A stretch of DNA of 21,558 nt from a virus. Made by a program: the position numbers and the translations under genes. Below are positions 2,457-9,333 of this stretch, piece after piece (the stretch's first letter is position 1; every line of letters starts with the position of its first letter). The DNA lies in IMG/VR virus record IMGVR_UViG_3300025120_000658, positions 1-21,558 of that record. One strand, written 5' to 3'. The notes under the pieces are model-generated. The model was not told the DNA's origin and ran no database searches. It worked only from the letters and a program-made list of their open reading frames with translations.

Positions 2457-3077
2457 TTGGCCAATTTATTCGATTCAACTAACTATCCAAACTATGTACC
2501 TTCTGAATTTAAGAAGGGCGATAACTGGAATTGGAAAAATGATAGTTTAGGAACAGATTACGACAACGCATCTTTTACTCTTAAATACGAATTTAATTTA
2601 ATTGATGGATCCACAAATACTCATTTCCAGGTTGTAGCTACAAATGACGGATCTAATTACAAAATTGAAGTTCCGCATTCAACCACTACTAATTACACGG
2701 CTGGGGAATACAACTGGATAGCTAATATCCATCGCAATTCTGGCGGCAGAGTAAAAGTTGGCGAAGGCTTTATTACGATACAAGACGATTACGCTACCAC
2801 AACAACTTCAGTAAGATCATTTGCCAAACAAATGCTAGATGCTATTGAGGCCGTGGCTTTAAACAGAGCCACCATGGATCAATCATCAATGAGCATTGCG
2901 GGCAGATCGCTTTCTAGAATGTCTATAGATGAATTAATGAGTTTTAGAGATCGATTTAAAACTGAATACTTGCAAGAACTTAAACAAGCCAGGGCTAAAA
3001 ATAACAAAGGCACTGGTAACAATATCAAAGTTAGATTTGGACAGCATTCAACATTTAACCCAACAGACTTAACATAA
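2457..3077 (+). CDS. Head-tail connector protein with C-terminal gpW-like domain
   Basis: This 206-aa protein occupies the position of lambda W, between large terminase and portal. Residues about 118-195 look like gpW: a helix (RSFAKQMLDAIEAVALN), a beta hairpin region (SMSIAGRSLSRMS), a second helix (DELMSFRDRFKTEYLQEL) and the terminal IKVRF strand. Lambda gpW is only 68 aa; here about 115 residues precede it, with alternating beta-rich sequence (GDNWNWKNDSL, TLKYEFNLIDG, IEVPHSTTTNY, GEYNWIANIHR) resembling a small immunoglobulin-like or tail-type domain. The start codon is TTG, supported by AGAGGA at 2447-2452 four bases upstream. gpW-type proteins close the packaged head and receive the tail, so a structural connector role is inferred; the N-terminal domain's function is unknown. 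Confidence 0.7.
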   Translation: MANLFDSTNYPNYVPSEFKKGDNWNWKNDSLGTDYDNASFTLKYEFNLIDGSTNTHFQVVATNDGSNYKIEVPHSTTTNYTAGEYNWIANIHRNSGGRVKVGEGFITIQDDYATTTTSVRSFAKQMLDAIEAVALNRATMDQSSMSIAGRSLSRMSIDELMSFRDRFKTEYLQELKQARAKNNKGTGNNIKVRFGQHSTFNPTDLT

Positions 3078-4567
3078 TGGCCTGGTACAACAATATTTTA
3101 AATCGAAATCCAAAACCTAAGAAACAAACTTTTAAAAGAAGTTATCAAGGTGCATCTACTGGTAGATTGTTTGCTGACTTTTTAACATCAAGCAAATCAG
3201 CAAATGCTGAAATAAAAGATAATTTAAGGACTTTGCGAGATAGGGCCAGGGAACTAGCCAGAAATAACTCATACATAAATCGTTATTTAAACTTAATGAT
3301 TTCCAATGTTATAGGCAAGCATGGCGTTAGAATTTCAGCTAAGGCCAGAAATGATAATGGATCTTTAGATCTGCTGGCCAACAAACAAATAGAAGATGCC
3401 TGGAAACAATGGACTAGATATGGAGTGCCAACAGCAAATGGCAAAATGTCTTTTCTTGATTGTCAAAAACTTTTTGTAGAATCTTTGGCCAGGGATGGCG
3501 AAGTTTTAATTAGACACATAAAAACTAATAAAAATTCTTTTGGCTATCACATACAATTTTTAGAAGCAGATTATCTTGATGAAGATTTAAACACTGTTGC
3601 AAAAAATGGCAACAAGATATGTATGGGGGTTGAGGTTGACTCTTACTACAGGCCAATTGCATATCATTTGTTTAAAGAGCATCCCTACGATACTACTTAT
3701 ACAAAATACAGTAGAAAACATATAAGAGTGCCAGCTGAAGAAATTACGCATTGCTATATGCCAAATAGGGCAGAGCAAACAAGAGGCGTGAGCCACATAG
3801 CTACAGCAATGGCAAATGTAAAACAATTAGATGGATATTTAGAGGCAGAAATAATTGCTGCCAGATTAGGGGCCAGCAAAATGGGTTTCTTTACTTCACC
3901 AGACGGCAATTCATATGTTGGCGATGACACTGAAGATACGTTTAACCCAGTTATGAATGTTGAGCCTGGAACCTTCCACCAATTAAGCAGTGGCCAGGAG
4001 TTCCAAACATTTGATCCCAATCATCCAACAAGTGCATTTGAATCTTTTACAACTACAGTTTTAAGATCTATTGCTTCAGGACTAAATATCTCATATCACG
4101 CTTTGAGCAATGACTTAACTTCGGTCAACTATTCTTCTATTCGCCAAGGTGCATTAGAAGATAGATCTAACTTTCAGATCTGGCAAGAATTTATTGTTCA
4201 GCATTTTATAGATGTTGTATTCAAACGCTGGTTAGAAATGGCCATAACAACTAAAGCTATTAACTTGCCAATCGGTAAATATAGTAAGTTTGCTAATTCA
4301 ATAAATTACATTCCAAGATCTTTCCCTTGGATAGACCCATTAAAAGAAATGCAAGCCAATGTGGTTGGCCTACAAAATGGAATCGTTACCTATTCAGAAA
4401 TTGTTTCAAACTACGGCAAAGATGTAGAAGAAACATTTGAACAACATCAAAAAGAAAAAGAACTAGCTGCACAATATGGAATTGAAACAGCATTCCAGCC
4501 ATTTGGTCAAAAAGCACCAGTTGAAGCTATTGTCCAAGGCAGCAACCAGGAACAAGAGGATGGCTAG
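3077..4567 (+). CDS. Portal protein (lambda gpB family)
   Basis: This 496-aa protein is the expected dodecameric portal, the channel for DNA entry and exit at one capsid vertex. It carries typical lambda-family portal blocks: an early RDRARELARNNSYINRYLNL helix, NVIGKHGVR, the QKLFVESLARDGEVLIRH segment, IQFLEADYLD, EEITHCYMPNRAEQTRGVS and the later GLNISYHALSNDLTSVNYSSIR region, which marks the crown/clip-proximal part. Lambda gpB is 533 aa, so the length fits. The start ATG shares a base with the previous stop (TAATG at 3075-3079). The acidic C-terminus (QEQEDG) overlaps the start of the capsid fusion gene by 8 nt. Assignment is firm on family similarity and gene order. Confidence 0.95.
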   Translation: MAWYNNILNRNPKPKKQTFKRSYQGASTGRLFADFLTSSKSANAEIKDNLRTLRDRARELARNNSYINRYLNLMISNVIGKHGVRISAKARNDNGSLDLLANKQIEDAWKQWTRYGVPTANGKMSFLDCQKLFVESLARDGEVLIRHIKTNKNSFGYHIQFLEADYLDEDLNTVAKNGNKICMGVEVDSYYRPIAYHLFKEHPYDTTYTKYSRKHIRVPAEEITHCYMPNRAEQTRGVSHIATAMANVKQLDGYLEAEIIAARLGASKMGFFTSPDGNSYVGDDTEDTFNPVMNVEPGTFHQLSSGQEFQTFDPNHPTSAFESFTTTVLRSIASGLNISYHALSNDLTSVNYSSIRQGALEDRSNFQIWQEFIVQHFIDVVFKRWLEMAITTKAINLPIGKYSKFANSINYIPRSFPWIDPLKEMQANVVGLQNGIVTYSEIVSNYGKDVEETFEQHQKEKELAAQYGIETAFQPFGQKAPVEAIVQGSNQEQEDG

Positions 4568-6815
4568 GCCAAACGAAGGTATGAAAACAGCTGCAAAAAG
4601 AGCCTTAGCCCAACGTGAAGAATATGGCCGTGGTGGAACTAGAACAGGTGCTATAAGAGCCAGGCAAATCGTAGCTGGAGAAAACCTATCTGATACAACA
4701 ATAAAAAGAATGTATAGCTTTTTTTCTAGGCATAAAAATAACAAAGCAAAGTTTTACGATAAAAAAGAAAACGATGGCGGGCCAACAGCCTGGAGAATTG
4801 CATGGGATCTCTGGGGTGGCAACGCTGGCTTTACTTGGTCAAAAGGCAAAGTAGAGCAAATGAACAAAGAAAAAAGTTTTAACAAGTTTCAAGAGGCAAT
4901 TACGCCAAATGAAAAACATCCTAGCGAGGTAAGCATGGAATTTAAAAGTGAAAATCCCATCCTCAGCGAAACAGAAGCAGAAGGCTTAATTGATTCTGCT
5001 GAAGTCATTGAGGATGTTGAATTAGATGCAACAGAAAGATTGTTTGACGATGAGGTAACTTATCGAACAATTGATCTCTCCAGGGCATCTTATATTGACG
5101 AAGAAACCAGACGAGTTCGCATTGGAGTATCCTCTGAAAGCGGAGTTGAAAGGTCATTTGGTTTAGAGGTATTAAGCCACAAAGCAGAGGATGTAGATAT
5201 GTCATTTATGGCCTCTGGATCAGCACCATTATTGAACAACCATAATATGGAAGAACAAATAGGTGTTGTTGAAGAATATAAACTTGACGAGGCTGCAAAA
5301 AGAACAGTTGCAGTAGTTAGATTTGGTAAATCTGCACTTGCTCGTGAAGTCTTTGATGATGTAAAAGACGGCATAAAAAGAAACATATCCGTTGGCTACA
5401 GAGTAAATAAACTGGAACAGGCAAGCAATGAGGAGATTGGCGATCATTACAGGGCTAGTTGGACACCTATGGAAGCATCCGTAGTTTCAATCCCAGCAGA
5501 TCAATCCAAGCAAGTTGGCGTGGGCCGTTCTAAATCTAACAAACTTCCAAACACAAAGGTGAAAATAATGGAAAACGAAAAACAAGAAATTAATCTTGAT
5601 GAAGTTAGATCTCAAAGTGCAGACGAAGCAAGAAAAGAATTTGCTAAAAACTCAAAAGAGATTTTAGACCTTGCTGCTAAGCACAATAAAAGAGATTTAG
5701 GCAATCAAGCTATTCAAGATCAATTATCAGTTGACGAGTTCAGAGGACAATTACTAGAAACTATTTCTAATGATGTGCCTTTAGAAACTCCAAATGAAAT
5801 TGGTTTAAGCAAAGCTGAAACACAAAGATTCAGCGTTATGCGTGCTATTAATGCAATGGCAAATCCAACAGATCGCAAAGCACAAGAAGCTGCACGATTT
5901 GAAATGGAATGTTCAGAAGCTGCACAAGAAGCATATGGCAGAACAGCCCAGGGAGTTATGCTTCCAGCTGAAGTCATGGCTAATTGGAATCAGCGTGATA
6001 TGTCAGCTGGTAGTGATGGCGATTTAATTGGTGAGGATTACAGAGGACAAGATTTTATCGATGTTCTTAGAAATAACTCAGCAGTTATGCCTTTAGCAAC
6101 TAATCTTAATGGCCTATCTGGCGATGTTAAGATTCCTAAGAAAACTGCCGCTTCAACAGCAGCTTTCATTAGCTCAGAAGGCGGAGCAGCTGGTGAGTCA
6201 GAAATGACAATCGGTAACATCTCTCTTACCCCAAAAACTTTGGGTGCATTTACTGATGTAACTAGACAGCTAATGATTCAATCTTCATTGGATATTGAAA
6301 ATCTAATTAGACAAGATCTTGCAGCTGGAATGGCGATTGCTATTGATGATGCTTGTTTAGAAGGTGATGGTCAAAATGGTAAGCCAACAGGTATTACAAA
6401 TACTACTGGCATTAATACTGTTTCATTAACTTCTGCTGCTGCTCCAACATGGCCAGAAATGGTTAGCTTGGAATCAGCTGTTGGCGTTGATAATGCTCTA
6501 TTAGGCAGACTTTCATACATTGTTAATCCATCAAACTATGGCACATTAAAATCTACATCTAAAGACACTGGAAGCGGTATCTTTATTGCAGACGGCAATG
6601 GCATGAATGGCTACCAAGTGGTTGTTTCTAACCAATTGACTGCTAATAACTATGTATTTGGAAACTTTAGCGACTTGCTAATCGGCTTCTTTGGCGGATT
6701 AGACCTGGTCGTGGATCCTTATACGAGTTCAAGTTCTGGAACTGTTCGAGTAGTTGCACTTCAATCTGTTGATGCAGCTGTAAGAAACCCAGTCTCATTT
6801 GTAGTTGGTTCTTAA
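4560..6815 (+). CDS. Prohead protease-major capsid protein fusion (HK97-fold)
   Basis: One uninterrupted 751-aa frame encodes three modules. Residues 1-105 form a small domain with YGRGGTRTGAIRAR, IKRMYSFFSRH and WDLWGGNAG, a pattern I recall beside prohead proteases. Residues about 165-325 are a U35-type prohead protease with likely catalytic His228 (LLNNHN), Ser277 (RNISVGYRV) and an acidic partner E305 in PMEASVVSIPAD. Residues about 337-751 are an HK97-fold capsid protein: a helical delta-like scaffold (337-445), then the capsid core (KIPKKTAASTAAFISSEGG, FTDVTRQLMIQSS, GDGQNGKPTGI). The ATG at 4560 is chosen over an open frame back to 4476 because AGGA (4548-4551) lies 8 nt upstream and the gene then overlaps the portal stop by 8 nt. 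Protease-capsid fusions are known in other phages. Cleavage sites cannot be read from the sequence. Confidence 0.93.
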   Translation: MARPNEGMKTAAKRALAQREEYGRGGTRTGAIRARQIVAGENLSDTTIKRMYSFFSRHKNNKAKFYDKKENDGGPTAWRIAWDLWGGNAGFTWSKGKVEQMNKEKSFNKFQEAITPNEKHPSEVSMEFKSENPILSETEAEGLIDSAEVIEDVELDATERLFDDEVTYRTIDLSRASYIDEETRRVRIGVSSESGVERSFGLEVLSHKAEDVDMSFMASGSAPLLNNHNMEEQIGVVEEYKLDEAAKRTVAVVRFGKSALAREVFDDVKDGIKRNISVGYRVNKLEQASNEEIGDHYRASWTPMEASVVSIPADQSKQVGVGRSKSNKLPNTKVKIMENEKQEINLDEVRSQSADEARKEFAKNSKEILDLAAKHNKRDLGNQAIQDQLSVDEFRGQLLETISNDVPLETPNEIGLSKAETQRFSVMRAINAMANPTDRKAQEAARFEMECSEAAQEAYGRTAQGVMLPAEVMANWNQRDMSAGSDGDLIGEDYRGQDFIDVLRNNSAVMPLATNLNGLSGDVKIPKKTAASTAAFISSEGGAAGESEMTIGNISLTPKTLGAFTDVTRQLMIQSSLDIENLIRQDLAAGMAIAIDDACLEGDGQNGKPTGITNTTGINTVSLTSAAAPTWPEMVSLESAVGVDNALLGRLSYIVNPSNYGTLKSTSKDTGSGIFIADGNGMNGYQVVVSNQLTANNYVFGNFSDLLIGFFGGLDLVVDPYTSSSSGTVRVVALQSVDAAVRNPVSFVVGS
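4935..6815 (+). CDS. Possible internal-start product: protease-capsid without N-terminal domain
   Basis: Codon 126 of the fusion gene is an ATG (4935) preceded by GAGG (4926-4929) with a 5-nt gap, a spacing as good as at the annotated starts. Initiation here would give a 626-aa protein starting MEFKSENPIL, exactly between the N-terminal domain and the protease domain. This is an inference from ribosome-site placement and domain boundaries; a chance purine run is possible. Confidence 0.35.
   Translation: MEFKSENPILSETEAEGLIDSAEVIEDVELDATERLFDDEVTYRTIDLSRASYIDEETRRVRIGVSSESGVERSFGLEVLSHKAEDVDMSFMASGSAPLLNNHNMEEQIGVVEEYKLDEAAKRTVAVVRFGKSALAREVFDDVKDGIKRNISVGYRVNKLEQASNEEIGDHYRASWTPMEASVVSIPADQSKQVGVGRSKSNKLPNTKVKIMENEKQEINLDEVRSQSADEARKEFAKNSKEILDLAAKHNKRDLGNQAIQDQLSVDEFRGQLLETISNDVPLETPNEIGLSKAETQRFSVMRAINAMANPTDRKAQEAARFEMECSEAAQEAYGRTAQGVMLPAEVMANWNQRDMSAGSDGDLIGEDYRGQDFIDVLRNNSAVMPLATNLNGLSGDVKIPKKTAASTAAFISSEGGAAGESEMTIGNISLTPKTLGAFTDVTRQLMIQSSLDIENLIRQDLAAGMAIAIDDACLEGDGQNGKPTGITNTTGINTVSLTSAAAPTWPEMVSLESAVGVDNALLGRLSYIVNPSNYGTLKSTSKDTGSGIFIADGNGMNGYQVVVSNQLTANNYVFGNFSDLLIGFFGGLDLVVDPYTSSSSGTVRVVALQSVDAAVRNPVSFVVGS
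5568..6815 (+). CDS. Likely internal-start product: stand-alone major capsid protein
   Basis: Codon 337 of the fusion gene is an ATG (5568) preceded by AAAGGTG (5555-5561) with a 6-nt gap. Initiation here gives a 415-aa protein beginning MENEKQEINLDE, which is the usual size and start of an HK97-type capsid precursor: a charged, helical delta-like segment of about 110 residues followed by the capsid core. A head needs hundreds of capsid subunits but few proteases, so a separate capsid start would solve the ratio problem that a one-piece fusion creates. Lambda uses the same trick in the C/Nu3 gene. The sequence shows the start site; use of it is inferred. Confidence 0.55.
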   Translation: MENEKQEINLDEVRSQSADEARKEFAKNSKEILDLAAKHNKRDLGNQAIQDQLSVDEFRGQLLETISNDVPLETPNEIGLSKAETQRFSVMRAINAMANPTDRKAQEAARFEMECSEAAQEAYGRTAQGVMLPAEVMANWNQRDMSAGSDGDLIGEDYRGQDFIDVLRNNSAVMPLATNLNGLSGDVKIPKKTAASTAAFISSEGGAAGESEMTIGNISLTPKTLGAFTDVTRQLMIQSSLDIENLIRQDLAAGMAIAIDDACLEGDGQNGKPTGITNTTGINTVSLTSAAAPTWPEMVSLESAVGVDNALLGRLSYIVNPSNYGTLKSTSKDTGSGIFIADGNGMNGYQVVVSNQLTANNYVFGNFSDLLIGFFGGLDLVVDPYTSSSSGTVRVVALQSVDAAVRNPVSFVVGS

Positions 6816-8848: not shown

Positions 8849-9184
8849 ATGTCAGTAATAGATAACGCAGTTAAACATTTTGAAAATCAAGATGTGAGAG
8901 TAACGCTGGTTCCTGAATGGGGCCAAGACGATGAACCTTTGAAAATATACAGCAAGCCATTAACGCTTAGTGAAACTTCTAAACTCTACAAAATGAGCCA
9001 GGAAGATGATCTAACGATGATGGCTTATGTATTAATTTATAAGGCATTGGATAGCGAAGGGGAAAAGTTATTTGATATTGGCGATAAAAATAAACTTCTA
9101 AACAAAGTTGATCGTGAGGTGTTAGTTAGAGTGGCCCAGGAGATTATGGGGCAAGAGCCTATTGAGGATATAAAAAAGGACTAA
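8849..9184 (+). CDS. Tail assembly chaperone, zero-frame product (lambda gpG-like)
   Basis: An 111-aa, mostly helical and acidic protein between tail tube and tape measure, the place of lambda G. It contains LKIYSKPLTLSETSKLYKM followed by a helical core (MAYVLIYKALDSEGEKLF). G-type chaperones coat the tape measure and recruit tube subunits and are not part of the finished virion. The last sense codons before the TAA are ATA AAA AAG GAC, which hold a slippery site; a -1 shift there would extend the protein into the following frame. The start ATG lies three bases after the tail-tube stop, with only a weak A-rich stretch upstream. Confidence 0.87.
   Translation: MSVIDNAVKHFENQDVRVTLVPEWGQDDEPLKIYSKPLTLSETSKLYKMSQEDDLTMMAYVLIYKALDSEGEKLFDIGDKNKLLNKVDREVLVRVAQEIMGQEPIEDIKKD
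9172..9178 (+). promoter_or_regulatory. Programmed -1 frameshift site (A-AAA-AAG)
   Basis: The heptamer AAAAAAG occupies 9172-9178 and is phased X-XXY-YYZ relative to the upstream chaperone frame (ATA AAA AAG). A -1 slip lets ribosomes bypass the TAA at 9182-9184 and continue to the TAA at 9331-9333. A-AAA-AAG is among the most efficient bacterial slippery sequences, used for example in dnaX. Lambda has the same arrangement with a different heptamer in G/T. Confidence 0.85.
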
Positions 9185-9333
9185 CAGAGGATGCTAATTT
9201 ATTTCTGCAATACAGCCTTGCAGAACGACTAGGAAAAACCCTAGAGGAATTACAACAAATTAGTGTCCAGGAATACCAGGGCTGGATTGCTTATTTAGAA
9301 ATCTTGGAAGATAGAAGGAAGCATGGCAAATAA
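9178..9333 (+). CDS. Tail assembly chaperone extension, T-like, made by -1 frameshift
   Basis: After a -1 slip at 9172-9178 the reading frame continues for 51 residues, making a 161-aa fusion with the upstream chaperone. The extension begins GLTEDANLFLQYSLAERLG and continues KTLEELQQISVQEYQGWIAY to RRKHGK. This matches the usual T-domain pattern of a short helix, LAxxLGKTLEEL, then a Q/E-rich helix with W. It has no start codon or ribosome site of its own and fills precisely the gap between the G-like stop and the tape-measure start, overlapping the latter by 11 nt. In lambda the GT fusion arises at a few percent and its T domain binds the tail tube. Confidence 0.85.
   Translation, partial: GLTEDANLFLQYSLAERLGKTLEELQQISVQEYQGWIAYLEILEDRRKHGK
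9203..9225 (+). other. Hairpin downstream of the frameshift site
   Basis: TTCTGCAA (9203-9210) and TTGCAGAA (9218-9225) are perfect complements around a seven-base loop. A second short hairpin follows (CTAGG at 9229-9233 with CCTAG at 9240-9244). They begin 24 bases after the slippery heptamer, farther than the usual 5-9 bases of a stimulatory structure, so a role in frameshifting is only possible. Confidence 0.35.

Follow-up and report, generated by a model that had tools for sequence, protein, structure and literature searches.

Conserved candidate internal starts in a protease-scaffold-capsid fusion gene of a marine phage

Introduction

In phage lambda, the C/Nu3 pair relies on an in-frame internal start with a Shine-Dalgarno site near the protease-scaffold boundary; the long and short products share their C-terminus and the short one is in excess. 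HK97 has one gene for the protease and another for the scaffold-capsid protein, and the two proteins are supplied in different amounts. Here we consider a marine phage gene in which an add-on domain, a protease and a capsid protein are fused in one frame of 751 amino acids (aa). It lies at 4560-6815 on the + strand (stop 6813-6815) of IMG/VR virus record IMGVR_UViG_3300025120_000658, positions 1 to 21,558, and this whole stretch of 21,558 nucleotides (nt) is called the window below. A reading of the letters alone, hereafter the original prediction, had proposed that the gene contains three nested translation starts.

Lambda C/Nu3 is cited in PMC8508860, an internal in-frame scaffold start has been described for Mu I/Z, and a candidate Val start with ACGAGGA has been proposed for the scaffold of PaMx73 (both PMC4378225). 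Fusions comparable to the present one have been described as a single gene encoding protease, scaffold and capsid or as giving a single propeptide (PMC8508860, PMC10892653), or as fused capsid and protease (PMC8601537); the fusion gene is not discussed in the paper on CRP phages (PMC12629253). The closest cultured counterparts are the phrog_617 fusions of ep3, FoX5, PPpW-3, VP882, phiHAP-1, RcCronus, S-CBS1 and the Roseobacter CRP phages, which belong to the same family and have the same gene order, although, CRP and S-CBS phages apart, most of them have no counterpart of the add-on domain (module A below). The records and papers examined give one major head protein for the gene and mark no internal start. 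A search of the open-access literature, which leaves out subscription articles such as the Gifsy-2 paper, turned up no report of an internal start in a capsid fusion. The papers on such genes cited here leave open a ratio problem, a protease on every capsid subunit, which conserved internal starts would solve while predicting something directly testable in laboratory phages.

Three candidate starts in a single frame

Our results suggest, with a probability of about 0.82, that nested in-frame starts give products with a shared C-terminus, the scaffold-capsid protein in excess, less of a protease-capsid protein and some of the full-length one. Ribosomes starting at 5568 would make the scaffold-capsid subunit (415 aa) in excess, those at 4935 a smaller amount of the same subunit carrying the protease (626 aa), and those at 4560 some of a version also carrying module A (751 aa). 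Sharing the scaffold-capsid part, the longer forms would be built into the procapsid together with the short one, so that a limited number of protease copies would end up inside; the protease would later cut off itself and the scaffold. What the sequences themselves show is that the sites exist, that they fall in predicted disordered linkers separating the domains and that many lineages conserve them more than the protein requires; from this we infer initiation at the sites, the order of abundance, co-assembly, the release step and the role of module A. Extra initiation at the protease-scaffold junction appears to be the simplest route to excess capsid subunits in a fusion. If true, the annotated N-termini and sizes of such proteins, and structural and proteomic readings made from them, may be wrong for most capsid protein copies.

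The positions of the three in-frame ATGs, the purine runs ahead of them, the spacings and the product sizes (751, 626 and 415 aa) all agree exactly with the original prediction. Each candidate start is given here with the energy of its anti-Shine-Dalgarno duplex, a rough proxy for initiation:

4548..4562, + strand: candidate start 1, AGGA at 4548-4551, 8-nt gap, ATG 4560; duplex -4.3; would give the 751-aa full-length product
4926..4937, + strand: candidate start 2, GAGG at 4926-4929, 5-nt gap, ATG 4935; duplex -7.8; would give the 626-aa protease-scaffold-capsid product
5555..5570, + strand: candidate start 3, AAAGGTG at 5555-5561, 6-nt gap, ATG 5568; duplex -6.9; would give the 415-aa scaffold-capsid product

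Among the 22 in-frame ATGs, 4935 and 5568 have the best duplexes (ranks 1 and 2), and the strength of both sites equals that of ordinary gene starts of the same phage. The opening of the RNA is only mild: 5568 is among the most open 19% of windows and 4935 in the top 36%, while 4560 does not stand out. Another in-frame ATG, at 4476, was ruled out as the gene start, the close relatives L002-L005 having a stop and no ATG there.

The domain layout was obtained from profile matches and from an AlphaFold2 model built on an alignment of 29 relatives, with a mean predicted local distance difference test score (pLDDT) of 69.9. Folded units are predicted at residues ~1-110, 177-310, 347-475 and 497-751, and the longer segments with pLDDT < 50 at 114-176, 311-350, 404-415 and 478-496:

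4560..4889, + strand: module A, helical add-on domain, residues 1-110; phrog_2859 1.7e-21, pLDDT mostly 76-90 to residue 100
4890..5087, + strand: predicted disordered linker holding start 2, residues 111-176; pLDDT < 50 at 114-176
5088..5489, + strand: prohead protease domain, S78 type, residues 177-310; Pfam PF04586, AlphaFold
5490..5609, + strand: predicted disordered linker holding start 3, residues 311-350; pLDDT < 50 at 311-350
5598..5984, + strand: helical, putative scaffold (delta-like) domain, residues 347-475; AlphaFold helices H347-374, H378-386, H391-404 and H446-459
6048..6812, + strand: HK97-fold major capsid protein core, residues 497-751; Pfam Phage_capsid 4.5e-41, phrog_617 2e-140

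Protease and capsid protein are covered within the single open frame by the phrog_617 profile (2e-140, residues 163-750), which places the gene among the phrog_617 protease-scaffold-capsid fusions. The HK97-fold capsid protein is recognized by PF05065 (Phage_capsid, 4.5e-41, residues 497-750). The protease match to PF04586 (Peptidase_S78, residues 220-324) is weak, at 22.7 bits for a cut-off of 21, and is backed by phrog_617 and phrog_4523. Module A gave no match in a Pfam search. A scaffold role for residues 347-475 is suggested by analogy with the HK97 delta domain.

Residues 126 (ATG 4935) and 337 (ATG 5568) fall inside the two long linkers that the model predicts as disordered. The claim that the starts sit at domain boundaries thus holds for both internal ATGs, by Pfam as by AlphaFold. 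The accompanying claim that the 415-aa product is capsid alone does not: it starts ten residues ahead of the helical scaffold domain and therefore comprises scaffold and capsid, the equivalent of HK97 gp5. As in HK97 genes 4/5, an S78-type protease is followed by a capsid protein with an N-terminal helical scaffold, but two separate genes are replaced here by the single frame 4560-6815, in which the internal start would take the place of the gp5 start. The gene shares with lambda C/Nu3 and Mu I/Z an in-frame internal start near the protease-scaffold boundary, here a candidate recognized from sequence. In lambda and Mu, however, the capsid protein is a separate gene, whereas here the short product would not be scaffold only, its frame continuing through the capsid protein, and a further start would serve the add-on module. 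The likeness to lambda C/Nu3, extended to the capsid protein, was aptly drawn.

The protease-scaffold junction across relatives

Loci were gathered from 65 close virus contigs, from cultured phages and from distant virus and prophage loci, 244 in total, which de-replication reduced to 113 lineages. All 113 have an ATG at the protease-scaffold junction. It lies 4-50 residues past VGxGR, the motif ending the protease, in 111 of them, and at +54 and +60 in the remaining two (L209 and L220), each with a Shine-Dalgarno-like site. A duplex of -4 or below precedes the junction ATG in 85% of lineages, compared with 17% of same-length windows from the protease part of these genes and 24% of those from the capsid part; the linker window itself had been fixed after the alignment was seen. 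Counted per ATG, 67% reach -5 against 15% of controls, and G is found at -9/-10 in ~70%.

Such purine runs could be pause sites for sequential folding of domains rather than starts, and they do sit between folded domains. Yet pausing requires no ATG 5-8 nt downstream, and no other feature of the junction is as constant as the ATG; the residue after its Met, mostly E, P, S or T, also resembles that of real N-termini. We consider pausing very improbable. The same holds for descent without function from formerly separate genes, such as the protease and capsid genes of HK97, which we find hardly credible: the linkers are unrelated in protein sequence and variable in length, with the Met as their constant feature, and the site is still present in members down to ~35% identity, whereas in a relic the linker would be the first part to decay.

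Conservation beyond the protein was assessed by taking the first linker ATG regardless of its site and replacing the six codons ahead of it with synonymous ones re-drawn from that gene. The observed mean duplex was -6.0 against -3.8 for the re-drawn codons (Fisher 1e-18, a value which, like the others below, overstates the independence of lineages with shared ancestry, so that combined P values are indicative only), and no bias was seen at control ATGs of the capsid part (Fisher 0.92). In 44 close relatives, the two strongest windows of synonymous conservation in the whole gene, 5529-5555 and 5580-5606, flank ATG 5568. Thus 5568 has the properties of a conserved in-frame internal start with a Shine-Dalgarno site, as in lambda C/Nu3, and the check suggested with the original prediction, that ATG and purines here be conserved beyond protein needs, comes out in its favour.

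These data bear directly on the possibility that only the full-length protein is made and that protease, scaffold and capsid are parted by proteolysis alone. Published fusions (MD8, Murka) are described as a single polyprotein, and HK97-type proteases do cleave the scaffold domain of the capsid protein. A single polyprotein nevertheless leaves unexplained both the codon bias and the presence, in nearly every lineage, of a junction ATG with a spaced Shine-Dalgarno-like site, and it would impose one protease on each of several hundred capsid subunits. We regard it as quite improbable.

Natural splits between protease and scaffold were sought among the 244 loci and none was found; frame breaks at the 5′ side of the gene occur only upstream of the protease. 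Two Helicobacter prophage matches that looked split turned out to be fused. In a Haematospirillum prophage (L224), the fusion gene is followed at 5742-6803 by a second stretch that matches the capsid part and lies in a different frame.

Start 2 and the mosaic N-terminus

The N-terminus of the family is mosaic (e.g. L014, L020, L024, L028; here 4560-4934): modules come and go ahead of the protease, among them module A (phrog_2859), Hva1/Tudor-like and DUF5824-like modules and, in L020, a tail-fibre-like stretch.

Many relatives have lost module A or carry something else in its place. It is missing in L006-L010 and L019, and both internal sites are kept there, which favours a tiered arrangement. 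An identical GAGGTAAGC-ATG is common, at start 2, to these relatives, to L011, which likewise has no module A, and to L001-L005, which have it. A GAGGAG- or GAGGA-like site ahead of ATGAAYAAAGAAGAT recurs at this place across relatives. In distant relatives start 2 typically reads GAGGAGAAAGCT-ATG-AAC-AAA-GAA-GAT. Its distance from the protease is nearly constant, and the site occurs whether the gene has module A ahead of it, one of the Hva1/Tudor-like or DUF5824-like type, or no module at all.

Because differing upstream modules made alignment unreliable in this region, start 2 was scored by its position relative to a protease landmark. In 32 of the 41 lineages that carry module A, an ATG is placed 55-90 aa ahead of the landmark. 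A duplex of -5 is reached in 91% of these, compared with 16% for the remaining ATGs in the stretch from module A to the junction (p 7e-14). The synonymous test at start 2 gave Fisher 1e-6 over 17 relatives, from a data set smaller than that for start 3. Within that smaller set, conservation of 4935 beyond protein needs is upheld as well, the GAGG and ATG being identical with or without module A.

In cultured relatives without modules, the gene begins near the position of start 2. It may then be asked if only 5568 is a real internal start, with 4935 being little used, a remnant of the gene start in an ancestor that had no module A. The agreement with the gene starts of module-less relatives and the fewer data for start 2 speak for this possibility. 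The site is kept, however, behind many different modules and with codon bias towards it, and also in relatives with a broken frame: in L068 (CRP-823, 2989-5917), L043, L056 and L109 the frame is interrupted between or within upstream modules and intact from start 2 onward. We therefore hold a two-start arrangement to be unlikely. The breaks in these four may reflect recent mutation or sequence error. CRP-823 is annotated with two overlapping major capsid genes.

Other protease-capsid fusions and observations against the proposal

Gifsy-2-type, Fels-1 and F10 fusions also combine protease, scaffold and capsid in one gene, but with a ClpP-type protease, and so represent a different fusion lineage; the protease of the present gene matches S78 and phrog_617 and no ClpP (S14/S49-like) family. 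At the protease end, the ClpP-type fusions of F10, Fels-1 and relatives (L245, L246, L302-L408) carry GAGGA or AGGAG, a gap of ~8 nt and ATG-CCN. Of 40 lineages, one did not match; the other 39 have the motif, and all 39 carry this start-like site, towards which codon choice is biased (Fisher 6e-6, control 0.73). Fusions of RcKvothe and of Helicobacter prophages display the same layout.

It seems fairly likely, if less so than for the gene itself, that nested starts are the general way of setting the capsid:protease ratio in tailed phages with protease-capsid fusions, in at least two unrelated protease types, N-terminal modules being added upstream of an old start that is kept, so that the gene would grow by tiers. 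Such a tiered gene would be a translational counterpart of retroviral Gag/Gag-Pol, with the minor product being the upstream extension in the phage gene.

Besides the shared ancestry of the lineages, several observations weigh against the three nested starts. Within the window alone, 5199 (-6.8) and 6204 (-6.5) score nearly as well as 4935 and 5568. Their Mets are not conserved across the family, unlike Met 337 (5568), and Shine-Dalgarno strength within the window was set aside as an insufficient criterion by itself. In 9 of the 41 lineages with module A the 55-90 aa slot holds no ATG; in seven of these nine an Hva1-like module occupies the slot, with a candidate start 2 upstream of the module. 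The EFxxMP motif of the ClpP-type fusions may itself be conserved as protein, and we therefore take these fusions, with those of RcKvothe and Helicobacter, as additional lineages rather than proof. Finally, the cyanophage-like S-CBS1, S-CBS3 and S-LBS1 (L069-L071) and contigs L153, L168 and L175 keep the junction ATG without a Shine-Dalgarno-like site, while other genes of the three phages mostly do have such sites; in this clade the internal start may have been lost or may work differently. The original prediction had named homologues without the internal ATG or the purine runs as its refutation: none of the 113 lineages lacks the junction ATG, and it is in the purines that the cyanophage-like clade departs.

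Neighbourhood of the gene

The fusion gene stands in a lambda/HK97-like head module, with terminase small and large subunits, a head-tail joining protein and a lambda-family portal ahead of it, and connector and tail genes behind. The gene immediately upstream is the following:

3077..4567, + strand: portal protein gene, lambda family; Pfam Phage_portal_2 1.1e-98

Its TAG stop overlaps ATG 4560 within ATGGCTAG, and the fusion gene is therefore probably translationally coupled to the portal. Further downstream, at 8849-9323 of the window, a small gene and a gap of ~140 bases precede the tape measure gene, where a frameshifted tail assembly chaperone is usually encoded; a joined gene of this kind is annotated in the related RcCronus.
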